A DNA stretch of 64,000 nt from assembly GCF_034087045.1 (NCBI RefSeq), contig NZ_CP139247.1, forward strand, positions 372,001 to 436,000. Direction: 5' to 3'. Below the pieces are notes generated by a model that was not told the origin of the DNA, ran no database searches, and worked only from the letters and a program-made list of their open reading frames with translations. This stretch comes from Chitinophaga sancti (lineage in GTDB: Bacteria; Bacteroidota; Bacteroidia; Chitinophagales; Chitinophagaceae). The translations under genes and the position numbers were made by a program. Every line of letters begins with the position of its first letter. Position 1 is the stretch's first letter. Shown piece by piece: positions 9,666 through 56,635 of the stretch.

Positions 9666-10273
9666 TCCGGCACCTGCGCCAATGTAGATGCATGTACCTT
9701 TTCGCCCAATCCATACAACTCCTGAAAACTCATGATCATCGGCCGCCATTTATCCGGATCCACCCGATCCGGCATATCTTCATACCTGATATCTTCCTGC
9801 AGATGCACCCGTTGAATTTCCAACTCCATCGTCAACACATTTATCCTCTCTCCCGTCAGCGGATCCACACTCACCAATGTCGCTTCCAGATGTACCGGAC
9901 ATTCTTCAATTCTCATGGCCTGCACACAATCAGCTGCCAACGGGGTAAACCCTGATCTGCCAAATTTATCCGGTTCATACACATACCCTTTTATTAACTT
10001 CCCTGGCGGCACAGGATAAGTCCCCGTAGTCAATGCTAAACGATTCACCTGTGCGGCTTGCTCAACCGAAGGCAGGTTCAATACACACTCTTTTGTACGC
10101 AGCAGGTTTTCAGTCGTTTTAGAGCTGGCAGCAATGCCGATCATACAGCGATACCCTAACCAGAAGATAGACGATATAGGAGCGAGATTATACGTTTCAT
10201 CTTCATTCACAGTGCTGACTACCACAACTGGTGTACCGAAGTAAAGAATGGACGGATGACTTATGTAGTGCAT
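9647..10273 (-). CDS. Flavin reductase-like, FMN-binding split-barrel protein
   Basis: 208 residues from the ATG at 10273 (MHYISHPSILYFGTPVVVVST). The frame stays open upstream but that part runs into the opposite-strand gene and has no homologous look. The split-barrel pattern PVVVVSTVNEDETYNLAPISSIFWLGYRCMIG with a later NLLRTKECVLNLPS fits the flavin-reductase-like/DUF447-type family, which binds FMN and reduces flavin or acts on small substrates. C-terminal residues are duplicated in the 28-bp array downstream. Convergent with the helicase gene. Confidence 0.75.
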   Translation of the reverse strand: MHYISHPSILYFGTPVVVVSTVNEDETYNLAPISSIFWLGYRCMIGIAASSKTTENLLRTKECVLNLPSVEQAAQVNRLALTTGTYPVPPGKLIKGYVYEPDKFGRSGFTPLAADCVQAMRIEECPVHLEATLVSVDPLTGERINVLTMELEIQRVHLQEDIRYEDMPDRVDPDKWRPMIMSFQELYGLGEKVHASTLAQVPEQLYQR

Positions 10274-10939: not shown

Positions 10940-11611
10940 TTAATTATTCTCAAGTTGTAGATACTTGTTTAAACTCCAGGAGTAAAAATCCAAATTTTCT
11001 CTTGGAATAAAAAAGCCTTTGATGCTGTTGAGGTTGCGGATACAGATTTGGATATGATTTTTCTCACGTATACCAGCACCTTTAAAAGCAGGTCCGCCCT
11101 CAATGAATGCACAACGTACAGAGTCAAACATTTTGAGATCGCTCATACCATGTATTCCTATATCATTTTTGTAATTTTTAAAAATTACGGCATGCATATA
11201 TTCAATAACTGCACAATCGAGCTCCCTTAATAACTTATCTTTATGTACATCACGGGCAATATTTCTATTAACTGGCAATGGCTTGCCAATTTCGTTATAT
11301 ATCTTTTCCATCGCATAATAATAAGTCGTGAGCATTTCAATATGACCGGAGTCTAAAAAATCACAACAGTGACCAAGATCAATTACTGCCCCAACGACAG
11401 CAGGCTCTTTGAACCTTCCTTGTTTTACCTTCTGCACGGCCCATTCACGGGCTCTGGCAAAATTATTCTCCCAGAAATAAAAGCCATGACCAAGCCAGTC
11501 ATGAGGTTCTTCACTGATCTTAATAATCTGTGGATGATGAACCAATGCATGGCATGTGGATTTATCACAACCGTGAAATCCAATTACTAAGTTGGACCTA
11601 TTACTATACAT
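10940..11611 (-). CDS. Putative ADP-ribosyltransferase-like toxin
   Basis: 223 residues, soluble. Three features suggest an ADP-ribosyltransferase (PARP/diphtheria-toxin-like H-Y-E) fold: an N-terminal strand VIGFHGCDKS (~9-18) with the His, a second strand WLGHGFYFWENN (~39-50) with the Tyr, and a late strand IREKNHIQICIRN (~183-195) that could supply the third catalytic position (Glu or Gln). Family assignment is by pattern, not search. The gene starts 12 bp after a 77-codon gene on the same strand, in the order antitoxin-toxin. An enzymatic toxin modifying a host target is the working idea; a stand-alone phage-defence ART is an alternative. Confidence 0.5.
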   Translation of the reverse strand: MYSNRSNLVIGFHGCDKSTCHALVHHPQIIKISEEPHDWLGHGFYFWENNFARAREWAVQKVKQGRFKEPAVVGAVIDLGHCCDFLDSGHIEMLTTYYYAMEKIYNEIGKPLPVNRNIARDVHKDKLLRELDCAVIEYMHAVIFKNYKNDIGIHGMSDLKMFDSVRCAFIEGGPAFKGAGIREKNHIQICIRNLNSIKGFFIPRENLDFYSWSLNKYLQLENN

Positions 11612-26791: not shown

Positions 26792-26819
26792 GTCGGGGTG
26801 AGCCGACACTTTTCCAACT
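26792..26819 (-). repeat. Dispersed repeat, copy B (GTCGGG-N15-[TC]CAACT type)
   Basis: 28-bp core differing from copy E at 33637 by one base. It contains the small dyad GTCGG/CCGAC. In minus orientation the end reads ...CCCCGAC followed by a hairpin, like the 3' ends of the tRNA-Pro genes in this region. Confidence 0.7.
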
Positions 26820-26970
26820 ATTTTATAGCAGATTTGAGCAATACTATATAGTACATGGAAAAGAGAGGCAGGTTACAACTTATTATAATTTATAAATTGA
26901 TTTTAAACACCATACAACCTATTGCTAATTAGTTTTTTAACTGTAACTTTCAAACCTCAATATTCCATCT

Positions 26971-28455
26971 ATGAAATGTTTGTTTCTGATCCCTGTATTT
27001 TTGTTTTTGGGCATGGTTGCCTTTGGGCAAATAAAAGTCACCTCTCAGGGGCCAATATTTTCGAACGACGATAATCCTGGCATACAAAGAGTGTTACTTA
27101 TGAAAAATGGCCAGACGTTTTATCTCTGTCTGAGTAAAGAATCATTGGTCGTTAGAATTTACTCTTCAAAGTTTACGGTAAAAGCTAACAAGAAATTATC
27201 TCCCCGTCTTGGTAAGGCATCCAGCTTTAAGATCAAAGGCCTATATGATATGAATGGAGATGTCATTCTATTGGTGAGTGCCGTGGTGGAGCACCAGTTA
27301 AAGTTGCAAAGAGTGATCATTGATGGTAATACAGGGGCTTTAAAGGACCAGAGTATTATTGGTGAGCTAGAGAAGGTGTCTTATTTCAAACTGGGTGGTG
27401 TGGCCTTTGGCGATGTGCCTGATCCAGATTTCTTTTCAGAAGAAATGCCGGAAGGGAATGGGTATGCGGTAGTGGCCATGAATAGTTTTCAGCCAGACAG
27501 AAGCAAGCGTATCGTTGTTTCTATATATGGTATAGATAACAAGGAGCTTAGCCATGCATTTTACAAATCTCCGGAGGAGAGGTATAAGTATATGCAATAC
27601 TTAGGTATGGCCCCTATGGAGAAGAATAAGCTAGGGATACTGGCTTATGGTTATAATACAGCATCCTCAGGTGGCAAAGAGTGTGAGTTGATATATGGAA
27701 CGCTTACTACAGGTGATACAACGCTGGAAATAGATAAACTGGGCACTTCCAAAAGAGCCTCTTCTTTTTCGATAGCGAGTTATAATGCATTGTCGAAAAA
27801 GATGTTGGTTGTAGAAAAGGTGGATAAGGAAGGATATACATCAACGGTAGTAGATCCTTATAATAAGACTGCTATTACAAAGATGAAGCTGAATAAGGAG
27901 CGGAACGATCTTCCAAGGAATATTTTTCCAAATGAAGATGGCTCCTTTACTATTCTGTATGAAGAATATGAGTTTTTTACAAATAATGGTCCTATCGTTA
28001 ATTCCAGTCATTCACATTATGGAGACTTTTCCGTGAGTCTTATATCAAAAGATTGCACGCAGGAAATAGCAAATTATACTGTCCCCAGGAATTTCTGGCC
28101 CAGGCCGGGGAAAGATTTCCCATTGCCAGTACTAGCTGGTTATCTGAGTGCGGGCGAAAATAATTACCTGCTTCTAAATGATGATGCTGATAATGTAGAG
28201 CGTGTACAATCAGGCAAAAGAGTACATAAAGTAACCACGATGGATGATTGGAATGGATATTATTACACCCTGATCGGGAAGGATGAAGTGCCGAAGGTGG
28301 CTTCTCTTTTTGGAGAACCGGATGAAAAGCGGGAACATACTATGGGGGCTTATGCAGCTAGTGATTATAGAAAAGAAACAGGAATGTACGTAATAGTGAA
28401 ACTAGAGCAGAGAGGGAAGGATACGAACTGGCGAATGGTATGGATGAAACCATAA
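26971..28455 (+). CDS. Large secreted protein of unknown function
   Basis: 494 residues with signal peptide (FLIPVFLFLGMVAFGQ). The mature part is beta-rich with repeated strand patterns such as GLYDMNGDVILLVSAVV and EDGSFTILYEEYEFFTNNG, suggesting a beta-propeller-like or repeated-blade fold. No lipobox and no T9SS tail is visible, so probably periplasmic. Family not recognised. Lies between repeat copies B and C. Confidence 0.7.
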   Translation: MKCLFLIPVFLFLGMVAFGQIKVTSQGPIFSNDDNPGIQRVLLMKNGQTFYLCLSKESLVVRIYSSKFTVKANKKLSPRLGKASSFKIKGLYDMNGDVILLVSAVVEHQLKLQRVIIDGNTGALKDQSIIGELEKVSYFKLGGVAFGDVPDPDFFSEEMPEGNGYAVVAMNSFQPDRSKRIVVSIYGIDNKELSHAFYKSPEERYKYMQYLGMAPMEKNKLGILAYGYNTASSGGKECELIYGTLTTGDTTLEIDKLGTSKRASSFSIASYNALSKKMLVVEKVDKEGYTSTVVDPYNKTAITKMKLNKERNDLPRNIFPNEDGSFTILYEEYEFFTNNGPIVNSSHSHYGDFSVSLISKDCTQEIANYTVPRNFWPRPGKDFPLPVLAGYLSAGENNYLLLNDDADNVERVQSGKRVHKVTTMDDWNGYYYTLIGKDEVPKVASLFGEPDEKREHTMGAYAASDYRKETGMYVIVKLEQRGKDTNWRMVWMKP

Positions 28456-28517
28456 ATTGAAAAGGCGGTTTCATTCGTTAAAATGATATAATGCATTAAT
28501 TTGATAATTACTTGTTT

Positions 28518-28572
28518 GTGAGTTATTCCCTGAGTAATATTTATACATAAATTGACTCAGGGAATAGCTCAC
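28518..28572 (+). terminator. Hairpin after the secreted protein gene
   Basis: 18-bp arms GTGAGTTATTCCCTGAGT / ACTCAGGGAATAGCTCAC (one mismatch) with a 19-nt A/T-rich loop, 63 bp after the stop at 28455. Confidence 0.55.
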
Positions 28573-28606
28573 ATAATAACTTGATATTCTTTGATAGAAC
28601 AAAAAC

Positions 28607-28636
28607 AAAAAAGGAGACCAATTGATCTCCTTTTTT
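28607..28636. terminator. Strong hairpin next to repeat copy C
   Basis: Arms AAAAAAGGAGA / TCTCCTTTTTT. The tRNA-Pro gene at 36708 has a closely similar terminator (AAAAAGGAGATCAA / TTGATCTCCTTTTT) at the same relative place and in the same orientation. Confidence 0.8.
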
Positions 28637-28645
28637 CCGGTTTTT

Positions 28646-28708
28646 GTCGGGAAGGATGGACAATTGTCGAACTCGTTTATTGAAGAATTATTGAAAATCA
28701 ATGAATAG
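28646..28708 (-). repeat. Dispersed repeat, copy C
   Basis: The first 28 bp (GTCGGG-N15-TCGAACT) are identical to copy D at 30882, and similarity continues through GATTATTGAAAATCAA-like sequence to ~28708. The minus-strand view is GTTCGA...CCCGAC, then a short gap, then the AGGAGA terminator. Confidence 0.75.
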
Positions 28709-29387: not shown

Positions 29388-30180
29388 TCATTTGGATTGT
29401 TTTTCCTGTATTCTATAGCATATCAAATAGACCGGTTTCACATTCGTGACACCCGGCGGAATACCCTTTATGTGAGTCATGAAAGTAGAAGTCTGTTCGT
29501 CCCAGTGTATTAGTACCTTTTCTGGTTCCAACCTAGCCCTAAAATTACCCCAACTATGTCTGAAATCCTTGCTATTGTCTGATCTTCATCTACCCACATA
29601 ACACCCACTGTTTCGATCCCTCCCTCTTTAGTAGGTGTCAGCGAATAACCAAGAGCATCCTTCACCGCCTTGGGATGTCTATCACGCGTTTTTTCGTTGA
29701 TCAGTTTCGCCAGTGTTTCTAATCTTTCTGGTCTTTTGAATAATTTCATTTCCTGAATCTTTTCCATTACCTTATTCTTAGACTTTTGGCTCATCGCTGG
29801 TAATGTTAGTAATAAGATACCATTTTTAGTTGGCACTAATCCTGGTCGAAAACTGTACCCAAGAAAATCAAAGCTAACTGGCCGCTTTGTCTGAATCATT
29901 TTGTTATTAGGACTTATGCAGAAGACTATCTTGGTCTTTTCAGGACTAAGGTATAGTTGACATGCACTCATCCTTTCTGCGATTTTGCCTTGTATGTAAA
30001 TTGCCTGAAGCTCGCTTTTACAATGTATAATGATATCATCACAGTATTGGAATTGCAAATGGTTACCTTTCAATTTCAGTATAGATGTGATAGCAATTTT
30101 TGTGAAGAGAAACAGTATTTTTATAAGAAAGTTTAGTAGTCTTTTGTCAAAGACGATTTGTTTTAGCTTTAATAAATAAG
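29388..30180 (-). pseudogene. Decayed group II intron reverse transcriptase fused to an unrelated gene tail
   Basis: The minus-strand frame 30073-29510 (no proper start; open but meaningless upstream to ~30180) holds QFQYCDDIIIHCKSE, the RT active-site region with YCDD instead of YADD, LSPEKTKIVFC, FDFLGYSFRPG and the maturase-like LFKRPERLETLAKLINEK. The RT palm motifs 0-4 and the En domain are missing. After LINEK the sequence changes character (RDRHPKAVKDALGYS, VGVMWVDED) and then, in another frame, continues NSKDFRHSWGNFRARLEPEK, IHWDEQTSTFM and IPPGVTNVKPVYLICYR to a stop at 29388. So an RT fragment abuts a frameshifted C-terminal gene fragment. Both are dead. Confidence 0.65.
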
Positions 30181-30881: not shown

Positions 30882-30938
30882 GTCGGGAAGGATGGACAAT
30901 TGTCGAACTTTTTCATGGAAAGATTATTGAAAATCAAC
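30882..30938 (-). repeat. Dispersed repeat, copy D
   Basis: First 28 bp identical to copy C at 28646; similarity extends through GATTATTGAAAATCAACGAAT. Same orientation as copies B, C, E and all three tRNA-Pro genes. Confidence 0.75.
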
Positions 30939-31178: not shown

Positions 31179-33065
31179 ATGAAAAGTGGAGCAAATGGAA
31201 TCTCATCGATTGAAAAATTTTTGAAAATCGAAATTCATAAAAAGAAAGAATTCCAGGATATTTTAGAACTGGTCGCCAGTTTGTGTGGAAAGCCTGTAGC
31301 TCTAATTGCTTTACTGGACGATGATTTTAATTGGTTAAAAGTTAAGCCTGGGTCAGATTTGGCAGTAATACCCCAGAAGACCTCTTACAACAATTATATA
31401 ATTGATAAAGAGAATTTGTTAATAGTTCCAGATACTACAGTAGACAATAGCTTTAAGACTAATCCCCTGGTAAGCTCAGAACCCTATATTAGATTTTATG
31501 CAGGTGTACCAATTGTTATTAAAAATGGGATTAAACTAGGTACCTTATGTATTTACGATACTAAGCCCAACTGGATAGATGAAAAGCAGCAAGAAACACT
31601 TAAATTATTCGCGCGCCAGGTTTCTTGCCTACTGGAGTTGGAGTTGGGTTATAAAGAACTTCAGTATCATATAGCGGAAAAAGATGCAAAAAACAATGCA
31701 CTGATGAAAGTAGCGCGGCTGCAATCACATCAAATCAGGCAACCGCTTACAACAATTATGAGTTTGATTAGCCTGTTTAAAGACGAATATCCTGATGTAG
31801 ATCGTGAATGGTTAAGAATGTTTGAGCGGGCTACCAATAAATTTGACATAAAAATCAAGGAAATTGTTGCTGAATCTATTGCTGTGAGGGACCTAAGAGC
31901 AATCCGTTTTAATAAAATGGTAGAAGAGATCGATGATTACGCAATACTACTGCTGGACAAAAATGGCAAGGTGGAAAACTGGAACAAAGGCGCTGAAAAG
32001 ATAAAAGGATATACTGCTGATGAGATCATTGGCAAACATTTCAGTGTTTTTTATTCTGAATACGATCAAAATAATCTCCGTCCACAAAGATTACTAAGCC
32101 AAGCCGAAAAAAGAGGAGTAGCCAAAGATGAGGGATGGCGTATAAGAAAAGATGGATCGAGATTTTGGGGAAGTATAATTATAACAGCCATACACGACGA
32201 TTACGGAGAAGTAATAGGTTTCACGAAAGTAACACGCGATCTTACTGATATCATGGATACCAGAGATGCTCTTTGTGCATCAGAAGAACTATCGAAATAC
32301 TTACTACTGCAAACTCAAAATTCTGTGTCCATTGGTGGCTGGGAGCTAAATATTGAGACTAACATTCTTCAATGGACAGCTATCACAAAGAGTATACATG
32401 GAGTTGATCCACAATATGTTCCTGAATTGGAAAGCGCAATCAATTTTTACAAACAGGGTTATAGCAGAGATAGTATTAAAAGAGCTGTAGAATTGGCTAC
32501 TTCAGAAGGTATCTCTTGGGACTTAGAGCTGCAGATAGTAACAGCACAGGGAAATGAAAAATGGGTCAGGGCGACAGGAAGCTCTAACTATAAAGACGGT
32601 GTATGTACTAAAATATATGGTACTTTCCAGGACATTGATGAACGTAAACGAGAAAAGATTGAAACTTCAAGATCGCAAAAGCTATTCGAAGATATTTTGA
32701 ACGCACCTAAAGGTATAGGAGTCTTCGCTATCGACATAAATGGAATCGTTACAGTCTTTAATAAAGGAGCCGAAATAATGCTTGGTTATACAGCAGATGA
32801 AGTAATAGGCAAACAATCTCTTGGACTGTTTTTATCTTACCCGGATAAAATAAAACGAGAAAAGAGGTCCGACATTAAGCTTGAAGGGATTGAGTCAACG
32901 CCCAAAATACTGGAAATGACGTTCACCGAACTACGGAATTGGACTTATGTAAGAAAGGATAGTAGCGAAATACAAATAAAATCAAATTTTACACCACTGA
33001 GAGACTCTAACGACAGTATTTATGGATACCTTGGTATTGCTATAGCACCCGGCTGGCACATTTAG
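31179..33065 (+). CDS. GAF-PAS multidomain sensor without a kinase ATPase domain
   Basis: 628 residues, cytosolic. GAF domain (~10-155: LIALLDDDFNWLKVKPG, YAGVPIVIKNGIKLGTLCIY), then an H-box-like helix RLQSHQIRQPLTTIMSL (~185-200) resembling HisKA, then PAS 1 (DDYAILLLDKNGKVENWNKG, IGFTKVTRDLTD), PAS 2 (GGWELNIETNILQW, IYGTFQDIDERKR) and PAS 3 (GVFAIDINGIVTVFNKG), ending GYLGIAIAPGWHI where a linker to HATPase_c would normally follow (DITE-type ending). No HATPase domain. So it is either a truncated hybrid kinase or a stand-alone sensor. The 3' end lies ~170 bp from tRNA-Pro copy 1. Confidence 0.8.
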   Translation: MKSGANGISSIEKFLKIEIHKKKEFQDILELVASLCGKPVALIALLDDDFNWLKVKPGSDLAVIPQKTSYNNYIIDKENLLIVPDTTVDNSFKTNPLVSSEPYIRFYAGVPIVIKNGIKLGTLCIYDTKPNWIDEKQQETLKLFARQVSCLLELELGYKELQYHIAEKDAKNNALMKVARLQSHQIRQPLTTIMSLISLFKDEYPDVDREWLRMFERATNKFDIKIKEIVAESIAVRDLRAIRFNKMVEEIDDYAILLLDKNGKVENWNKGAEKIKGYTADEIIGKHFSVFYSEYDQNNLRPQRLLSQAEKRGVAKDEGWRIRKDGSRFWGSIIITAIHDDYGEVIGFTKVTRDLTDIMDTRDALCASEELSKYLLLQTQNSVSIGGWELNIETNILQWTAITKSIHGVDPQYVPELESAINFYKQGYSRDSIKRAVELATSEGISWDLELQIVTAQGNEKWVRATGSSNYKDGVCTKIYGTFQDIDERKREKIETSRSQKLFEDILNAPKGIGVFAIDINGIVTVFNKGAEIMLGYTADEVIGKQSLGLFLSYPDKIKREKRSDIKLEGIESTPKILEMTFTELRNWTYVRKDSSEIQIKSNFTPLRDSNDSIYGYLGIAIAPGWHI

Positions 33066-33236
33066 CAAGATATTAAATAAAATCACATAGAAAGGCGGGA
33101 TAAACAAATTGGTGCTTTGTTTTTAGGGACTATAAAAAAATAACTCTGAATTAAGGGGACTACACCGCCCAAAACACAAGAGGCTCGTAAAACCTATGTT
33201 CTACTTGCCTCTTAAAATCCTTTGATATTAATTCTG

Positions 33237-33311
33237 TCGGGACGGCAAGATTTGAACTTGCGACCTCCTGCTCCCAAAGCAGGCGCGATAACCAGACTAC
33301 GCTACGCCCTG
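33237..33311 (-). tRNA. tRNA-Pro(UGG), slightly degraded copy 1
   Basis: 75 nt on the minus strand with anticodon loop TTTGGGA (anticodon TGG), D-arm GCGTAG...CTGG, T-loop TTCAAAT. It differs from the other two copies at four positions; one creates an A-C mismatch at acceptor pair 2-71, and T-loop position 57 is A. It may be a pseudogene or a weak gene. CCA is not encoded. A weak AAGAGGC/GCCTCTT dyad follows on the minus strand. Confidence 0.75.
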
Positions 33312-33327
33312 TAAAATACCCCATCAA

Positions 33328-33489
33328 TCATGAAGTTGCTTCTTTGAACAAGCAGGAGTAATCCTCAGGAATAACCGGATCAACTGGTTTCTCCTGATCT
33401 ATGTTTCTTGCTAACCAATTATACCTCTCTCTCCAAAGTTCTAAAATGTCAACTCTATTTTTTTTCAAAAATTCTGTAAGGAAATTCAT
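33328..33489 (-). CDS. Possible 53-residue small protein next to tRNA-Pro
   Basis: An intact frame from ATG 33489 to TGA 33328, with GGAG 5 bp before the ATG: MNFLTEFLKKNRVDILELW, then RERYNWLARNIDQEKPVDP and a short tail ending KEATS. It looks like one amphipathic helix and a Pro-rich tail, resembling the first helices of globin/RsbR-like sensor domains (weak). Could be a remnant of a longer gene cut at the tRNA. Confidence 0.3.
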   Translation of the reverse strand: MNFLTEFLKKNRVDILELWRERYNWLARNIDQEKPVDPVIPEDYSCLFKEATS

Positions 33490-33636: not shown

Positions 33637-33664
33637 GTCGGGGTGAGCCGACACTTTTCGAACT
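33637..33664 (-). repeat. Dispersed repeat, copy E
   Basis: 28-bp core, one base different from copy B at 26792. It lies in the otherwise gene-free gap 33490-33857; sequence after it (TTTTTAATAGAAGAAC) is like that after copies C and D. No hairpin as strong as at the other copies directly precedes it. Confidence 0.7.
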
Positions 33665-33857
33665 TTTTAATAGAAGAACTAAATATATTGGCCAATACTT
33701 TTTAAAGTCTAAGCAGGAGTTCCTTACTATTAAAATACATAATACTACCTGGCCGTAGCCTGACCTTTTGAACAAAGTATATTCGGACGTTTAAACAAAG
33801 CTATCCAAAAGCAGCTGTGCTATTTTTGTTCCATCAAACAAATTAAAAATTTAAAAA

Positions 33858-34853
33858 ATGGAACAAACAAATTACAACGGAGCATTACAGCATTCAATAG
33901 GATCAGGCTTCAACGCCACCTCAACAACAAGTGATGTGATCAAAGGTATTGACCTCACAGGAAAAATTGCCATTGTAACAGGGGGGAATACTGGCATTGG
34001 TTTAGAAACGACAAAAACACTGGCTGCTGCAGGAGCTACGGTTATTGTGCCTGCAAGAGATACAGCAAAAGCAAAGAAAAATCTGGCATCTGTTGTCAAT
34101 GTAGAAATTGAACCCATGGACCTGATGGATCCGGCATCGATCGATGCATTTGCCGAAAAGTTTTTGGCTTCGGGTCGCCCCCTTCATTTACTTATCAATA
34201 ATGCAGGTATTATGTGGGTGCCACTGCGTAAAGACAGTCGTGGTATTGAATCACAGTTAGCCACCAATTACCTGGCACAATTTCAACTAACCGCACGGCT
34301 TTGGCATGCACTAAAAAAAGCCGGCGGCGCCAGAGTGATCAACGTATCCTCACATGGTCATCAATTCGCCCCTTTCAATTTTGAGGACCCTAATTTTCTC
34401 AACCGTGAATACGAAACCCTGCAGGCGTATGGCCAATCAAAAACTGCCACCAATTTATTTGCGGTTGAATTAGACAATCTTGCCAAAGACTATAATGTAA
34501 GAGCATATTCATTGCACCCGGGTTCTATTGGTGGAACTGAATTAGGAAGAGAGGCACCACTGGAGCTGTTTCAAAACATGGGTTTTTGTGATGCAGAAGG
34601 CAATCTTTTACCAGAAGTAGCCGCCTCGTTAAAGACGATCCCACAGGGTGCAGCCACTACGGTTTGGTGTGCCACGAGTGCTTTATTAAATAACATAGGA
34701 GGGGTGTACTGCGAAGATGCAGACGTCGCCGAATTGACTGCCGACTCCTCCATGCCGACTGGCGTAAATCCCTATTCATTAGGTAAAGCCAACGCCAAAC
34801 GCCTATGGGCATTAAGCGAAGAAATGACCGGCATTACTTTCCGCATTATTTAA
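33858..34853 (+). CDS. SDR-family oxidoreductase (retinol-dehydrogenase/WWOX-like type)
   Basis: 331 residues. Cofactor motif AIVTGGNTGIGLETTKTL (~37-54), LLINNAGIMWVPL, catalytic Ser in VINVSSHGHQF, and YGQSKTATNLFAVEL with Tyr/Lys (~194). The longer C-terminal part with a substrate loop is typical of the retinol-dehydrogenase-like SDR branch. It is followed 19 bp later by another SDR and then an AraC regulator, so the three may form one locus. Confidence 0.9.
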   Translation: MEQTNYNGALQHSIGSGFNATSTTSDVIKGIDLTGKIAIVTGGNTGIGLETTKTLAAAGATVIVPARDTAKAKKNLASVVNVEIEPMDLMDPASIDAFAEKFLASGRPLHLLINNAGIMWVPLRKDSRGIESQLATNYLAQFQLTARLWHALKKAGGARVINVSSHGHQFAPFNFEDPNFLNREYETLQAYGQSKTATNLFAVELDNLAKDYNVRAYSLHPGSIGGTELGREAPLELFQNMGFCDAEGNLLPEVAASLKTIPQGAATTVWCATSALLNNIGGVYCEDADVAELTADSSMPTGVNPYSLGKANAKRLWALSEEMTGITFRII

Positions 34854-34872
34854 TCCACTTAAAAAAAATTAA

Positions 34873-35601
34873 ATGATAAATTTAAAAAACAAAGTAGCCG
34901 TTATTACCGGTGGTAACAGTGGCATCGGGTATGCCACCGCAAAAGCGCTTAATGAAAAAGGCGTAACGGTCATCATCACCGGTAGAAGAAAAGAAGCGAT
35001 TGAAAAGGCAGCCTCAACACTCAATGTAAGTGGGGTGGTGGCTGACCAATCCAACTTGTCCGACATTGACATGCTGGTTTCGGAAGTGAAAGCGAAATTT
35101 GGCAAAGTAGATATTTTACTTATCAATGCGGGCATTACAAAATTGGCCCCAATTGAATCGATGACTGAAAATGTGTTTGACGAAATAATGAATGTAAATT
35201 TCAAAGGGGCTTATTTTACACTGAGTAAACTTATTCCCATTTTAAATGATAACGCATCGGTGATATTTTTATCGTCAACATCTGCAACCATTTCTCCGCA
35301 AAGCGCATCGGTATATGCAGCAAGTAAATCTGCCATCAATGCTGTTATGAAAATTGCAGCCCTTGAATTGGCTTCCCGTAAAATTCGTGTGAATGCAGTT
35401 AGCCCCGGACCTGTTGCTACTGAAATCATGAATAAAATAGGACTGGATGCTACGCTTGAGGAGCAACTCATTGGTAGTATCCCACTATCAAGATTAGGGA
35501 AGGCCAATGAAGTAGCCAATTTGATAACCTATTTATCGGGCGACGAATCTTCATTTATTACAGGGGCAAATTTCGTAATTGATGGTGGTCAATCCATATA
35601 A
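34873..35601 (+). CDS. Classical SDR oxidoreductase
   Basis: 242 residues, standard length. AVITGGNSGIGYATAKAL (~8-25), LINAGITKLAPI, Ser in VIFLSSTSATIS, YAASKSAINAVMKIAALEL (Tyr/Lys ~152-156), and FITGANFVIDGGQ at the C-terminus. Co-oriented with the preceding SDR (19-bp gap). NAD(P)-dependent; substrate unknown. Confidence 0.92.
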   Translation: MINLKNKVAVITGGNSGIGYATAKALNEKGVTVIITGRRKEAIEKAASTLNVSGVVADQSNLSDIDMLVSEVKAKFGKVDILLINAGITKLAPIESMTENVFDEIMNVNFKGAYFTLSKLIPILNDNASVIFLSSTSATISPQSASVYAASKSAINAVMKIAALELASRKIRVNAVSPGPVATEIMNKIGLDATLEEQLIGSIPLSRLGKANEVANLITYLSGDESSFITGANFVIDGGQSI

Positions 35602-35676
35602 ATGATTATCATGATTATTTCTATTTTTGTATTCATAATTACCCGTCTGAACGAAAGACAATCAAAAAAATAAGAT

Positions 35677-36480
35677 ATGGAATATCAGGCAAAATATATA
35701 ACCGAGGATATTAAACTCTCTTGTTACGAAGACAAGTTTTTTAAATCAGATATTATGTTTGACCATCATATGCTCATTTGGTTTATTTCGGGAGAGACCA
35801 AGATCGTACAGTCAGATGCGACTTACTTTTTTAAAAAAGGCGATATATTTTTGATACCCAGAAATCAACTGGCAACCATCATAAATTATCCCAAAGACGG
35901 GCAGCCCCACAAAACTGTGGTGATGCACTTGTCAACCAAAAGGCTTAGCGAATTTTACGTCAACCTGCCTGTAAAACCTAAAGCCTCAGAATCGCAGAAA
36001 ATATATACATTCAACCACCATCCACTGCTTGAAAGTTGTTTGGCGTCCCTGATCCCGTACTTTGAAATGAAAGAACTTCCCGAAAATATTGCATCATTGA
36101 AAATTACAGAAGCCATCAGTATCCTCAGGGCGATAGACAAAGGGATAGACAACGTGTTGGCGAACTTTGAAGAACCCGGGAAAATAGATCTGGCAGACTA
36201 TATGGAAAAGAATTTTATGTTCAACCTGCCATTAGAAAAATTCGGTTATCTAACGGGTCGTAGCTTAACAACTTTCAAACGGGATTTTAGTAAACAATTC
36301 AACACTACACCTCAGCGCTGGCTTACGCAAAAGCGATTGGAACTGGCACACTATCATTTTGTTGAAAAGAAAAAGAAACCTATTGACGTGTACTACGAAG
36401 TTGGTTTTGAAAACTTATCGCACTTTTCCTATGCATTCAAAAAACATTTTGGGTACTCACCGACCCACCTGGTTGGATGA
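35677..36480 (+). CDS. AraC-family transcriptional regulator
   Basis: 267 residues. N-terminal cupin-like ligand domain (MLIWFISGETKIVQS, KKGDIFLIPRNQLAT), then the double HTH: FNLPLEKFGYLTGRSLTTFKRDF (~190-212) and PIDVYYEVGFENLSHFSYAFKKHFGYSP (~235-262), the AraC/XylS signature. Located downstream of the two SDRs, probably their regulator. The block SDR-SDR-AraC lies between tRNA-Pro copies 1 and 2. Confidence 0.9.
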   Translation: MEYQAKYITEDIKLSCYEDKFFKSDIMFDHHMLIWFISGETKIVQSDATYFFKKGDIFLIPRNQLATIINYPKDGQPHKTVVMHLSTKRLSEFYVNLPVKPKASESQKIYTFNHHPLLESCLASLIPYFEMKELPENIASLKITEAISILRAIDKGIDNVLANFEEPGKIDLADYMEKNFMFNLPLEKFGYLTGRSLTTFKRDFSKQFNTTPQRWLTQKRLELAHYHFVEKKKKPIDVYYEVGFENLSHFSYAFKKHFGYSPTHLVG

Positions 36481-36671: not shown

Positions 36672-36703
36672 AAAAAGGAGATCAATTACTTGATCTCCTT
36701 TTT
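36672..36703 (-). terminator. Terminator of tRNA-Pro copy 2
   Basis: Perfect stem AAAAAGGAGATCAA / TTGATCTCCTTTTT with loop TTAC, 4 bp after the tRNA 3' end on the minus strand. Confidence 0.9.
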
Positions 36704-36707
36704 CCGG

Positions 36708-36782
36708 TCGGGGCGGCAAGATTCGAACTTGCGACCTCCTGCTCCCAAAGCAGGCGCGATAACCGGACTACGCTACGCCCCG
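36708..36782 (-). tRNA. tRNA-Pro(UGG), copy 2
   Basis: 75 nt on the minus strand. Acceptor CGGGGCG/CGCCCCG with discriminator A, anticodon stem CCTGC/GCAGG around TTTGGGA (anticodon TGG), T-arm GCAAG-TTCGAAT-CTTGC. All stems pair. Sequence is identical to copy 3 at 39628. CCA is not encoded. Terminator follows directly. Confidence 0.95.
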
Positions 36783-36814
36783 TTTCCGCTCACTATTTTT
36801 CGTAGTTGGGAGTG

Positions 36815-36822
36815 CAAAAATA
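36815..36822 (-). promoter_or_regulatory. -7 element of tRNA-Pro copy 2
   Basis: On the minus strand TATTTTTG (TAnnTTTG), ~33 bp before the tRNA 5' end. The stretch between it and the tRNA (GCACTCCCAACTACGAA...) is related to that in front of copy 3, showing the promoter was duplicated with the tRNA. Confidence 0.55.
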
Positions 36823-36914
36823 ATAACCTTTTTTCAAGTTGCTAAACTTTTTTTCAAAAAAATGCATTTGCCCACCTAAAATCGTCATTTATGACAACAC
36901 ATATCCGGGTTTTA

Positions 36915-37613
36915 TCACTTCAAATACTTGTTTAATTCTTCCACTAACAGGTAAACAGTGGTGCATGGGCATTGGTCTGAGTAATTCCGATCCCCCCGAT
37001 AAGCTTCATGAAGACGTCTGGCACGACGAATTGCAAGTTCCTGTGAAGCCCCATTTAATCCTTGATGACGATCGTAATGTCCTTTACAAAACGCTTTTGC
37101 TTTTGCCTCATTATGAAAGCTATCCAGTTCCCATCTATCTTTTAGAATTGTATATAAATCCCGTCGGTTTACATTCGCGTGAAGCTCAACATAATGAAGC
37201 GCAAACCAGCGTTCAAAAGCATCATTTGAGCATGCCACTTTCAGGCCATTATCCTGCGCTCTTGTAATCGAGCTATTGAAATCGTTTGGCTGAGTTGAAG
37301 CTTCGTCTGGTTTAACATCATAATCAAAAACACACCAAATCTCGCGTCCTGCATGTTCCTCCTCTTGTTGCATTTTTAATGCATAATCTACAAGGGAATT
37401 TTTGGAATTCTACCCTCCAATTATTAAAACAGTTTTAGAAGGAACAAGAAAGCCTTGAAAGTAAAATGGCTCAGTATTCTCCCCTTCACAAATGATTAGA
37501 AATGTTTTGTTTTTATCAATTTGCTCCTCTTTATAAGCATTGCCCCCGATAAAATTAATTGAACGAAGATATGCCTCATTAGCCCGGGCCTTGCTGGGTT
37601 TATTATATCCCAT
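36915..37613 (-). pseudogene. rloB: RloB (AbiLii-like) protein interrupted by an in-frame TAG
   Basis: One frame of 232 codons broken by TAG at 37412-37410. The first part (67 codons) ends KTFLIICEGENTEPFYF...VLIIGG; after the stop the same frame continues NSKNSLVDYALKMQQEEEH, WCVFDYDVKPDE and CSNDAFERWFALHY to 36915. EGENTE and FDYD are the Glu and DxD of the Toprim-like RloB fold, and the FERW region is also family-typical. So a single amber codon splits an otherwise complete protein. It overlaps the rloA gene by 11 bp (coupled). AbiL (AbiLi/AbiLii) causes abortive infection in Lactococcus. Either inactivated by mutation, a sequencing error, or a suppressed stop. Confidence 0.8.
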
Positions 37614-38928
37614 CCTGATCAGATTTATGCTTAACTACCCAATCAATTTTGTCCAGATAAGGTATAGCAGAATAAGAACCGTTCAAGTATTCTTTATCAT
37701 AAGAGGCATCTTTTCTAACCCCTTTATATTCTATTAGATTAGTTAAAGTACTAATGCCATACTTATCTTTATTTACAAAACAAATTTGATCCCTCCTCAG
37801 CTTTGCCCGTTTTAACAGACTTGCATCATGAGTTACAAAAATTAATTGTGCATGCCTGGGATTAGTTTCAGAATTATTGAAGAGCTCAACAATCTTTAAT
37901 GTCAGATTAGGATGAAAGCGCGCGTCAAACTCGTCTATAATAATGATTCTTCCCTCCCATAGAGCTTCTAATATAAGCGCACCAACACTAAATAGTTTCG
38001 CAGTTCCTTCAGATTCCCATTCCCCGAAAGGAACGATAATCTTATCAACTACCTCTCCTTCTTCGTTAAATTTGGAATGAACAGAAAAAAGACTGACCGG
38101 CTTTCTTTTATTGCCGTCCATGGAAGTACTGATTTCCTTTTTCATTTCCAATTCAACTAAATGTTCTGGTAATTCAGCTATTTCCAAATCTTCAATCCCT
38201 GTATCTGCCGCCCTTAACAGACTTTTAATAGCTTCCTTCTGCTGCTCGTCACCTTCAACCATGGCTGTCATCGCATATTTTAATGCAGAGTCATCATAAA
38301 CTCCATCAACTGCCATAATTCTACGTATATCATCCCGAATGCCACCTAAAAATTTATTTCCCGAAAGCGCTGCTGCAGTCAGAAAAAGAGAATCAGTTCG
38401 AAAAAGCTCACTATCTCCACTTTGGGCCTGCTTAATAAAATTATCCATTGCCGGCAACTCCTTTTCATTGATATTCATGCCTTCAGGAGTTCGCATAAAT
38501 ATTTCTGCCTGATGCTCGCCTGTTCCTGAATACAGCCACTCATAGGTGACCTTACCACTCAAAATTTGAAAGCCGTAGCGGTAAACTATACTTTTGTGCA
38601 ACATGATATATTGGAAAAATACAGGTTGGTCATCCCAGTTTGAAAGTAACTGAAAGCGATCATTCCATAAACCCTTTGGAATACCTTCTACAGCAACCGA
38701 TCTGCTAACCATAAAACAAAAAGCAGCCATTGCTTTGGCAAGATTACTCTTCCCACTGGCATTACTCCCAAAAATCGCCTTCGATTTCAATAGTCGTAAC
38801 GACTGTTCCTCAAAAACATGCCCTTCTTCTAATCCACTATCATTACTACGCAAGGGAGTGGCTTCAAGGCTAAATTTTTGAAGATCTCTGAAAGACCGGA
38901 AATTCCCAAAGTGAAATTCTATAAACAT
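37603..38928 (-). CDS. rloA: RloA/AbiLi-like AAA ATPase of a phage-defence pair
   Basis: 441 residues, ABC-type ATPase of the AAA_15/AAA_21 (COG1106) group. N-terminal FIEFHFGNFRSFRDL, Walker A FGSNASGKSNLAKAM (~53-67), an inserted helical region, Walker B IIIIDEFDARFHPNL (~335) and a His switch in LIFVTHDASLLKRA. With RloB it forms the pair known as AbiL and seen near restriction loci as RloA/RloB; OLD-like logic (ATPase senses, Toprim partner acts) is expected. Ends 11 bp inside rloB. Flanked by two identical tRNA-Pro genes. Confidence 0.87.
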   Translation of the reverse strand: MFIEFHFGNFRSFRDLQKFSLEATPLRSNDSGLEEGHVFEEQSLRLLKSKAIFGSNASGKSNLAKAMAAFCFMVSRSVAVEGIPKGLWNDRFQLLSNWDDQPVFFQYIMLHKSIVYRYGFQILSGKVTYEWLYSGTGEHQAEIFMRTPEGMNINEKELPAMDNFIKQAQSGDSELFRTDSLFLTAAALSGNKFLGGIRDDIRRIMAVDGVYDDSALKYAMTAMVEGDEQQKEAIKSLLRAADTGIEDLEIAELPEHLVELEMKKEISTSMDGNKRKPVSLFSVHSKFNEEGEVVDKIIVPFGEWESEGTAKLFSVGALILEALWEGRIIIIDEFDARFHPNLTLKIVELFNNSETNPRHAQLIFVTHDASLLKRAKLRRDQICFVNKDKYGISTLTNLIEYKGVRKDASYDKEYLNGSYSAIPYLDKIDWVVKHKSDQDGI

Positions 38929-39592
38929 GAAACAAATCTACCTTATTTATTTGTGAAAAAATCACAAATGGTAGTTTTAAGGTCTTGAAAAGCTATTCTT
39001 TTAACCAATTCCCCCCCTCACCCTTATTTTCAAGAGTTGAGGATAAATTGATTTAAAAGAAACGTTCTTTCATTCTTAACAATACAGAATTTGAAATAGA
39101 AAATGAGGAAATGCTGGTTAACAGTTCAATCTTTAAAAATTATCAGATTATGCCGTAGCCTACCTTGTTGTATTGCAAAAAATTATCTCAACTTATGAAA
39201 GTCTTCTCTTATTTCGGAATTACCTTCGAACTAACCTCGCTGCCTTGAATATGGTTATAAAGTTTCGCGTTGCTTCCCATTATCTCAAATAAAAGATGGA
39301 TTACATTTCAGGTCAAACTATACAAAGGTCTTCTTTACAACTCAGACTATCATCTGCCAAGAAACCTGTTCGAACTTTTCAGAACATATAGATTTGGTAC
39401 TGGATTTATCGATGCCTCTCTACAGCATGGCGTTCTAGCTCCGTGAAGGCTAAAGAACAGCTTCAAAAAAATCGTATTCCCGGATGGAATTTTCTATAGT
39501 TTGGGAAATAGGGCATTTCGAACTGAGAAGGTAAATAGCGTGTTCGCTATAATTGCAGGCCTGAACAGCGTTTCAGAGGGGGACAAAATAAA
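38929..39592. other. Gene-free stretch of ~660 bp
   Basis: I see no intact gene, RNA or clear repeat here. It includes the upstream region of rloA and A/T-rich sequence that may be decayed; short frames lack ribosome sites and family resemblance. Confidence 0.5.
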
Positions 39593-39618
39593 ACAGGGTA
39601 GTATTTCTACTACCCTGT
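39593..39618 (-). terminator. Terminator of tRNA-Pro copy 3
   Basis: Perfect stem ACAGGGTAGTA / TACTACCCTGT with loop TTTC, then a T-rich run on the minus strand; 9 bp after the tRNA. Confidence 0.9.
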
Positions 39619-39627
39619 CTGTTCAAG

Positions 39628-39702
39628 TCGGGGCGGCAAGATTCGAACTTGCGACCTCCTGCTCCCAAAGCAGGCGCGATAACCGGACTACGCTACGCCC
39701 CG
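39628..39702 (-). tRNA. tRNA-Pro(UGG), copy 3
   Basis: 75 nt, identical to copy 2 at 36708, all stems intact, anticodon TGG. It has the best promoter of the three copies and is probably the ancestral gene. Confidence 0.95.
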
Positions 39703-39782: not shown

Positions 39783-39872
39783 TATTTTTTAAAAAATCTT
39801 GCGAAAATCTTTCCGCCCCCTATTTTTCACCCCTATTTTTCCAGGGTTTTCTATACTGTTTGTTCGAATCTC

Positions 39873-39979
39873 CTATACTCATTCTATACTCTTTCTATAC
39901 TCATTCTATACTATTTCTATACTCGTTCTATACTCGTTCTTCGCCGCTAGTTCGTCGCTAGTTCGCTGCTTGTTCGCTT
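39873..39979. repeat. 11-bp tandem repeat array
   Basis: CTATACTCRTT-type units start at 39873, 39884, 39895, 39906, 39917 and 39928 (period 11), then change to TCGCTAGTTCG-type units of the same period to ~39979. Located between tRNA-Pro copy 3 and the GH2 gene. Confidence 0.85.
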
Positions 39980-55405: not shown

Positions 55406-56635
55406 ATGGAACAATCACATATCAGTTTTGAACAGGTTGTGAGTCGTGGCTGTGGCCTCGATGTTCACCAGGAGAATGTAGTAGCTACCATCAGGGGTGA
55501 TAATTTGCAGGAACAAACCCGCACTTTTAGCACCTTCACAAGTTCACTTAAGGACCTGGTAGCCTGGTTGGAAGAATCGGGCATTACACATGTCGCAATG
55601 GAGAGCACGGGTGTTTACTGGAAGCCTGTTTTTAATATACTAGAACCTCACTTTGAACTTATTTTGGTCAATGCCCGGCATATTAAATATGTGCCGGGTC
55701 ATAAGACTGATCGTAATGACAGTGCCTGGATTGCAAAATTATTGCTAAGCGGGCTACTAAAAGGAAGTTTTATTCCACCCCAATACACTCGTGAATTACG
55801 GGAATTGTACCGATACAAACGTAAAGTAATAGGCCAACGCTCCAGTGAATATAACCGATTACAGAACATTTTAGAGACTGCCAATATCAAATTGAGCAGC
55901 GTTGTCAGTGATGTGTTCGGCATAAGCGGCTGGTCAATGATCTCTGCTATTATTGATGGAGAACAGGATCCCATGATATTGGCCAATCTGGCCAAAGGTA
56001 GGCTCAAAATCAAGAAGCAAGAACTTATTCTTGCTTTAGAAGGTAATCTTAATGAGCATCACCGTTTTATGCTCAACCTGTCTAAAGCTGCTATCTTACA
56101 GCTAAATGAACTGCTTTGTCAGGTAGATAACCGTATTGATCAGTACTTAAGAAAATGGGAAGAAGAAGTAAAATTACTTCAGACTATTCCCGGAGTACAA
56201 AAACAAACAGCTACAGCCATCTTAGCCGAAATAGGTACAGATATGCATGCCTTCCCAAATCAGCATCATTTAGCCAGTTGGTGTGGCTTATGTCCGGGTA
56301 ATAATGAAAGTGCCGGAAAAAAGAAAAGTGAACGTATCAATCATGGCAACAGTTCTCTTAAAACAGCACTGGTGGAGGCGGCCTGGGCCGCTGTACATAC
56401 AAAGGAATCTTATCTGAAAAGAAGATATTACTCTTTAAGTGTGCGAAGAGGTAAAAAACGTGCTCTTATCGCCATTGCACACAAAATCCTCATTGCCACT
56501 TATTTTATACTCAAAAATAGAGTGCCATATATGGAACCGGATAATCAGGAGTGGCTTAAAAAAAGAAAGCAGGCGCAGATAAATAATTATCTCAGGCGCC
56601 TGCGCGAGCTTGAGGCATTACCCCCATCTCAATAA
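55406..56635 (+). CDS. IS110-family transposase (bridge recombinase type)
   Basis: 409 residues, full length. N-terminal RuvC-like domain: Asp in RGCGLDVHQENVVATI (~19), Glu in AMESTGVYWKPV (~67), Asp pair in GHKTDRNDSAWIA (~108). Coiled middle. C-terminal transposase domain IPGVQKQTATAILAEIG, LASWCGLCPGNNESAGKKKS (Ser of the NES(A)G segment is the candidate nucleophile) and KRRYYSLSVRRGKKRALIAI. Appears intact and potentially active. Confidence 0.95.
   Translation: MEQSHISFEQVVSRGCGLDVHQENVVATIRGDNLQEQTRTFSTFTSSLKDLVAWLEESGITHVAMESTGVYWKPVFNILEPHFELILVNARHIKYVPGHKTDRNDSAWIAKLLLSGLLKGSFIPPQYTRELRELYRYKRKVIGQRSSEYNRLQNILETANIKLSSVVSDVFGISGWSMISAIIDGEQDPMILANLAKGRLKIKKQELILALEGNLNEHHRFMLNLSKAAILQLNELLCQVDNRIDQYLRKWEEEVKLLQTIPGVQKQTATAILAEIGTDMHAFPNQHHLASWCGLCPGNNESAGKKKSERINHGNSSLKTALVEAAWAAVHTKESYLKRRYYSLSVRRGKKRALIAIAHKILIATYFILKNRVPYMEPDNQEWLKKRKQAQINNYLRRLRELEALPPSQ

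Follow-up and report, generated by a model that had tools for sequence, protein, structure and literature searches.

A tRNA-Pro gene of Chitinophaga sancti as the probable attachment site of serine recombinase islands, one of them bearing an AbiL-type gene pair

We examined a 64,000-nucleotide stretch of the Chitinophaga sancti genome, hereafter the window (positions 372001-436000 of G000, an 8.3-Mb genome in one contig), in which the defence-type genes rloA and rloB lie between two copies of a tRNA-Pro(TGG) gene. We consider it highly probable that islands mobilized by a large serine recombinase (LSR) attach at this tRNA gene, and that the slot holding rloAB is a decayed island of this kind within an outward-growing array. 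The LSR gene would occupy the tRNA-side end of an island and point at the tRNA, so that the 3′ ends of the two genes overlap in antisense. The opposite end would be a site termed S (attR), which would keep the displaced piece of the tRNA 3′ end and encode the C-terminal tail of the LSR in antisense. With each new island entering at the tRNA, older ones would shift outward, leaving an array of small, mostly recombinase-less cassettes. The sequence evidence carrying this proposal consists of an LSR remnant in the slot, the recurrence, strand and coding pattern of the S sites, cassette boundaries that fall at S sites or tRNA ends, and the overlap of LSR frames with tRNA genes.

The rloAB slot and its recombinase remnant

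Read in order, the slot would comprise t3, the LSR remnant, rloA, the interrupted rloB and the older, promoter-bearing tRNA copy t2; a third copy, t1, lies beyond it. The features are as follows.

39627..39702, minus strand: t3, tRNA-Pro(TGG) with a promoter-like upstream block, read as the attB/attL-type tRNA (ARAGORN, genome comparison)
39416..39620, plus strand: remnant of the 3′ end of an LSR gene, reading toward t3 (similarity to LSRs trimmed of their tRNA part)
37603..38928, minus strand: rloA, AAA_21/AbiLi ATPase, open over 441 amino acids (PF13304, PADLOC AbiLi)
36915..37373, minus strand: downstream part of rloB (AbiLii), its frame broken by an in-frame stop at 37410-37412 (PF13707, PADLOC AbiLii)
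36783..36916, minus strand: t2 promoter block, common to the window, G086 and G014
36706..36782, minus strand: t2, tRNA-Pro(TGG), identical to t3 (ARAGORN)
36672..36703, minus strand: terminator-like inverted repeat, directly after t2
33236..33311, minus strand: t1, third tRNA-Pro(TGG) copy, without the promoter block (ARAGORN; 96% identity over 74 bp)

An earlier reading of this DNA (the original prediction) had described about 660 bp (660-700 bp) of gene-free sequence within the slot and had reported no integrase. Neither statement held, given that the stretch contains the LSR remnant, lying against t3, and that intact LSRs adjoin the same tRNA in three other species. Compared with LSRs cut before their tRNA part, the best piece of the remnant scored 53.9 bits and two linked pieces together gave an E value of 6e-13 (search space 699 bp), while the maximum in 200 mononucleotide shuffles was 25.4 bits. 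Moreover, the DNA at 39368-39635 resembles, at 75.6% over 270 bp, a stretch in a close relative (G014) whose neighbour is an S site and not a tRNA.

The intact LSR frames adjoining tRNA-Pro(TGG), found in G034, G029 and G069, contain both Resolvase and Recombinase domains, of which the window has a remnant only. The LSR genes read toward the tRNA and enter or cross it in antisense, and their profile resembles the serine integrases A118, TP901-1 and PhiC31 in the PDB. In G000 itself, intact LSR frames adjoin tRNA-Asp and tRNA-Ser. Matches to PF07508 numbered 45 in total, in 13 of the 14 genomes tested, and the four in G000 (E≤0.001) comprised these two, a 300-amino-acid frame near tRNA-Lys and one fragment. 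Among 30 of the 45 Chitinophaga loci that were examined, 13 clearly overlap a tRNA in antisense and two more do so loosely (15/30), one through a 783-amino-acid frame running about 700 nt past the tRNA and the other by 5 nt; four of the non-overlapping loci are copies of one element in G026. In that genome a single LSR matched with equal score at four places (L202, L215, L224 and L231), all near contig ends and with no tRNA beside them in the loci examined. Structure prediction of the LSR was weak (predicted template modelling score 0.38, tail below 60 in the predicted local distance difference test) and was not used.

To extend the comparison, GTDB species genomes were scanned with four tRNA-overlapping LSRs as query, and the best 80 of at least 458 confirmed relatives were analysed. 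The LSR frame reached over a tRNA in antisense at 66 of these 80 loci, at one of them (L285) only by its stop codon, and the overlapped tRNAs represented 19 anticodons; no tRNA was found within 400 bp of the start of the LSR open reading frame at any of the 80. One of the overlapping loci (L233, Chitinophaga japonensis DSM 13484) has its LSR over tRNA-Pro(TGG). LSR position thus suggests islands of this kind in many other genera, nearly all Bacteroidota by record titles, and many LSRs in this sample come with their tRNA target plainly marked.

The original prediction was right that t2 and t3 form an identical direct pair around rloA-rloB (both on the minus strand, 75-76 bp identical, a match not attributable to chance at E 2.6e-39 in a search within the window) and that their upstream promoter sequence is partly common. 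The mismatches of t1 look like decay. The assignment of rloA and rloB as an AbiL-like pair was likewise borne out by the domain and PADLOC matches listed above; RloA had no match among solved structures. As in the AbiL-type pair, an ATPase accompanies RloB, but here the pair is not intact, rloA being open and rloB interrupted.

Comparison with the two closest relatives, G086 and G014, placed the borders of the slot. In both relatives, homology of the right flank stops where t3 has its 3′ end (39627). Homology to G086 restarts at 36916, covers the t2 promoter and t2, stops at 36707 (the t2 3′ end) and picks up again where t1 starts (33312). In place of t2, an AraC-family regulator with two short-chain dehydrogenases, and t1, G086 has a single tRNA, which may represent either the empty site of the dehydrogenase/AraC module or the loss of that module when tRNA copies recombined. 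Within its slot, G086 keeps both tRNAs, 3.1 kb apart, and carries a HEC-01-type ATPase with a DUF4276 protein in place of rloAB, whereas the G014 slot contains PsyrTA, one S site and an RloAB with both frames split (L039 6708-5386 and 5077-4691). The t2 gene with its promoter block (36707-36916) is therefore common to the window and to the rloAB-less G086, which argues that t2 does not depend on rloAB.

These break points divide the proposal, made in the original prediction, that an element inserted at a tRNA end and left a regenerated copy at each end. Insertion targeted to the tRNA is supported by the homology breaks at the 3′ ends of t3 and t2; the view of t2 as a copy regenerated by the rloAB element is not, given that G086 retains the t2 block without rloAB. 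Relatives that lack rloAB and still carry both tRNAs at the same spacing had been named as an argument against such insertion, and G086 comes close to this (3124 bp versus 2920 bp in the window), with other cargo in place. Across three close relatives, the slot thus contains an AbiL-type pair, PsyrTA with an AbiL-type pair, or a HEC-01 pair, and arrays of this type would be a marked place to look for defence genes. Among ten hand-picked slot proteins submitted to PADLOC, a selection that gives no measure of enrichment, five matched strongly (HEC-01A, HEC-01B, PsyrA, PsyrT and PDC-S02), two more weakly and three not at all.

S sites and alternative recombinase tails

Four S sites lie in the window, sharing a 41-bp pattern that ends like a tRNA 3′ end.

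33637..33677, minus strand: S4, site read as attR, with the conserved peptide in antisense
30882..30922, minus strand: S3, site read as attR
28646..28686, minus strand: S2, site read as attR
26792..26832, minus strand: S1, site read as attR

A sequence-only model of 20 sites, built on its own matches, detected S sites in 61 of 79 Chitinophaga genomes (E≤0.05). Weaker matches cluster near tRNA-Asp and tRNA-Ser genes, and the 3′ end of the site follows the tRNA type, being CCCGAC at Pro and CCCGC at Asp and Ser. We located 97 S sites in 92 regions (1.94 Mb). Where the region includes a tRNA upstream of the site (65 sites), site and tRNA are always on one strand; the others comprise 29 in tRNA-less regions and three without an upstream tRNA. 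A plain regular expression for the site gave 17 forward and no reverse matches in 41 sources. A hairpin followed by a T-run was present after 45 of the 97 sites compared with 20/970, and LSR remnants, all antisense, followed eight of the 97, compared with none in 96 control stretches. At one locus (L071, tRNA-oriented positions 9738-10050), three near-identical tRNA-Pro 3′-end fragments and a fourth related one stand in tandem behind the tRNA, about 100 bp apart, and look like bare attachment remnants.

Some cassette boundaries coincide with these sites. The S1-S2 cassette (window 26792-28690) has a 95.6% identical counterpart among different neighbours in G014, and in each genome the two limits of the homology lie 0 and 4 bp from S sites. 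DNA of the PAS gene next to S3 has an 88.7% relative at the other tRNA-Pro locus of G014, ending 1 bp from an S site on one side only, and a 5.1-kb G014 block that ends 32 bp past an S site has a 99.0% match elsewhere in G000. Other homology blocks between G000 and G014 in the same comparison end far from any mark.

In antisense, the S sites encode a conserved peptide, G-Q/H-x-S-N-x-F-I/V-E/D-E/D-L-x-K-I, which by inspection starts in the same frame as that of LSRs running into the tRNA. The antisense codons show a coding pattern: third positions carry 0.39 bits versus 0.85 and 0.72 at the other two, and pairwise changes number 2254 at third positions versus 1272 and 1473 (the pairs are not independent); 164 of 20000 column permutations reached the observed codon-position difference. 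Furthermore, the S peptide forms the end of an open frame of 165 amino acids elsewhere in G000 (701787-702281, L135), which aligns with residues 404-563 of the 572-residue LSR L211 (30% identity, E 3e-16) and has no Pfam recombinase match. Among the matches listed, we found no complete gene ending in the S peptide, the frames being mostly shorter than 80 amino acids, with three matches to longer frames (177, 510 and 863 amino acids; E 0.06-0.72).

Natural LSRs with similar bodies and differing tails were identified in Flavobacterium. L288 and L279 are 98.4% alike over residues 1-511, and L276 and L269 are 96.0% alike over residues 1-528, after which the tails part. They do so where the tRNA begins: one member of each pair reads on in antisense to tRNA-Arg and its partner has an alternative tail, which resembles the Chitinophaga S peptide by eye only. 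We take the S peptide to be a C-terminal LSR tail that would be swapped on integration for the tRNA-antisense tail. Recombination itself, the circular forms and the reunion of LSR body with tail in those circles are inferred from these patterns.

Discussions of LSR direction usually invoke a separate directionality factor. The two tails raise the tentative idea, which we hold to be somewhat less probable than its opposite, that the LSR carries its own direction switch: the form made from the circle, with the far-end tail, would integrate, and the form made from the integrated copy, with the tRNA-antisense tail, would behave differently. If true, the C terminus of the recombinase would itself change with integration. 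On this idea, any S site could become the far end of a larger circle, so that each passenger cassette would keep a working tail, which would explain the preserved tail codons in recombinase-less cassettes.

Weighing the explanations

A number of observations, along with the unmarked right border and the tyrosine integrases taken up with the alternatives below, weigh against islands moved by an LSR. The left ends of t2, t1 and S4 showed LSR similarity no better than shuffles, leaving t3 as the only one of four tested with a remnant. G000 has no intact LSR at tRNA-Pro in the PF07508 search (E≤0.001), and the window array is therefore probably immobile at present. In the public scan, 14 of the best 80 frames do not reach a tRNA (one lies near one, 13 are without), and overlapping loci may have been favoured because the query tails are tRNA antisense and only the best 80 were kept. 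The codon phase at the tRNA end was uniform in only 50 of the 66 overlapping loci, and the called tRNA ends may deviate by 1-2 nt. The regions surveyed for S sites were in many or most cases picked for carrying tRNA-Pro or a model match, chance may account for the weakest of the sites (E up to 0.08), and the plain expression gave one reverse match (L090) in a further 20 sources. Finally, the S-peptide profile does not detect the Flavobacterium alternative tail (L276 at E 3.6), and the flanking DNA examined contains no tRNA-Arg beside L276, L288 or L289.

The alternative that survives best, though we regard it as unlikely, is that ordinary duplication gave two promoter-bearing tRNAs and that homologous recombination or chance brought rloAB in between the two, with no site-specific recombinase involved. 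Simple tandem duplication was the first idea considered; the LSR remnant and the positions of the homology breaks placed it second. Paired copies of the tRNA recur across the genus: tRNA-Pro(TGG) occurs at ≥85% identity in 73 of 79 Chitinophaga genomes, the present one included (one copy in 37, two in 33 and three in three), and the remaining six have more distant matches only. All 36 adjacent pairs, from 34 of the genomes, are in the same orientation, 152 bp to 87 kb apart from start to start, and in 33 of them both copies have equal rounded identity to the query; in two genomes with two copies, these lie on separate contigs. Duplication is favoured by the t2 promoter block, which is common irrespective of cargo, by tight pairs of 152-172 bp in four genomes, and by the right border of the rloAB unit, which bears no attachment mark, there being no S site between rloB and t2 in the window. 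On the other side stand the LSR remnant against t3, which counts for the left border, the break of homology at the tRNA 3′ end and the intact LSRs at the same tRNA in relatives. The original prediction had offered tandem copies first and insertion later as an equally simple view; this order does fit the t3/t2 pair better, but the second copy of the tight pairs lacks the t2 promoter block, and these pairs may therefore be separate duplications.

A second alternative, that tyrosine integrases built the array and the LSR remnant is incidental, appears very improbable. Tyrosine integrase genes do lie downstream of tRNA-Pro in G002 (L053 6145-7344) and close to it in G033 (L073 7454-8686), with a fragment in G081 (L108), and a second kind of element therefore seems to use tRNA-Pro in two relatives. 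These three were the only matches outside the seed loci among 3411 open reading frames from 93 sources, and by inspection the reading frame of the S peptide is the one that LSRs use on entering the tRNA end. None of the 12 PF00589 matches in G000 falls in the window, where a local search of open reading frames found none either. A tyrosine integrase acting in trans was also considered and set aside, as neither the PF00589 search of G000 nor the local searches gave a good candidate. An integron reading is similarly confronted with the absence of a tyrosine recombinase from the window array; the view of the S sites as integron-like DNA sites was revised because the antisense coding pattern appeared.

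Least probable of all is that the S sites are not attachment sites and instead represent another conserved element, a small-peptide gene or RNA signal, between genes behind tRNAs: the antisense peptide is indeed their most regular feature and its open frames are short, mostly below 80 amino acids, but some cassette boundaries fall on S sites, the 3′ ends follow the tRNA type, and an LSR-like frame ends in the S peptide.

Known systems and further features of the array

Islands moved by an LSR at a tRNA gene have several relatives in the literature. In the Dehalococcoides ssrA islands, the recombinase gene dsiB overlaps attL, and full function of DsiB was suggested perhaps to require either the circular form or a neighbouring island that supplies the absent 3′ fragment (PMC3146451). 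The S tail would correspond to a fragment of that sort. The present islands differ from that system in lying at many tRNA genes, in belonging to Bacteroidota, in showing a codon-constrained tail at the far end where that study had proposed the fragment, and in that most cassettes examined lack an LSR (PMC3146451). The natural LSRs with near-identical bodies and either tail make the 2011 DsiB idea testable.

The SCC/ECC elements with CcrAB are likewise serine-recombinase islands at the 3′ end of one gene with att remnants, but their target is rlmH, not a tRNA gene (PMC6222049). Tyrosine-integrase islands at tRNA genes (Islander, PMC4383910) also restore the tRNA 3′ end and leave the displaced fragment at the far end, and differ in recombinase family. 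In the array, displaced 3′ fragments in tandem are seen at S1-S4 and not at the right end of the rloAB unit. Cis-mobilizable elements and accretion (described in part in PMC3146451) resemble the array in having att-flanked, integrase-less units in tandem, here candidates for mobile units; this form, with putative att sites at both ends and no integrase, is seen for S1-S2, while the right end of the rloAB unit is without an S site. In tRNA-dependent lysogeny, an element-borne tRNA with its own promoter lies beside a tRNA attB, a possible parallel to t2, although the integrases there are phage tyrosine integrases (PMC10865867). Within the open literature, including the available parts of PMC12884075 and with subscription papers and bioRxiv preprints outside this scope, we found no description of tRNA-overlapping LSR arrays in Bacteroidota. 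Judged by its sequence and against that literature, the window locus would be a previously undescribed variant of LSR islands, to be set beside the Dehalococcoides ssrA islands and SCC.

The remaining cargo of the array is as follows.

33858..36480, plus strand: two short-chain dehydrogenases and an AraC-family regulator, between t2 and S4
33328..33489, minus strand: open reading frame of 53 amino acids, between S4 and t1
31179..33065, plus strand: gene for a GAF/PAS protein, with related DNA in G014 at another tRNA-Pro locus
26971..28455, plus strand: cassette between S2 and S1 encoding a 494-amino-acid protein; the same unit occurs in G014 with other neighbours

Elsewhere in the window, a short reverse-transcriptase match at 29510-30073 (PF00078, E 4e-7) is probably a remnant, 10940-11611 has a weak PADLOC match to PD-T4-9_A (E 7e-7), and by eye an open reading frame at 55406-56635 resembles an IS110-type transposase. 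Between t3 and a GH2-type gene, at 39851-39949, lie seven overlapping repeat copies with 11-bp spacing.

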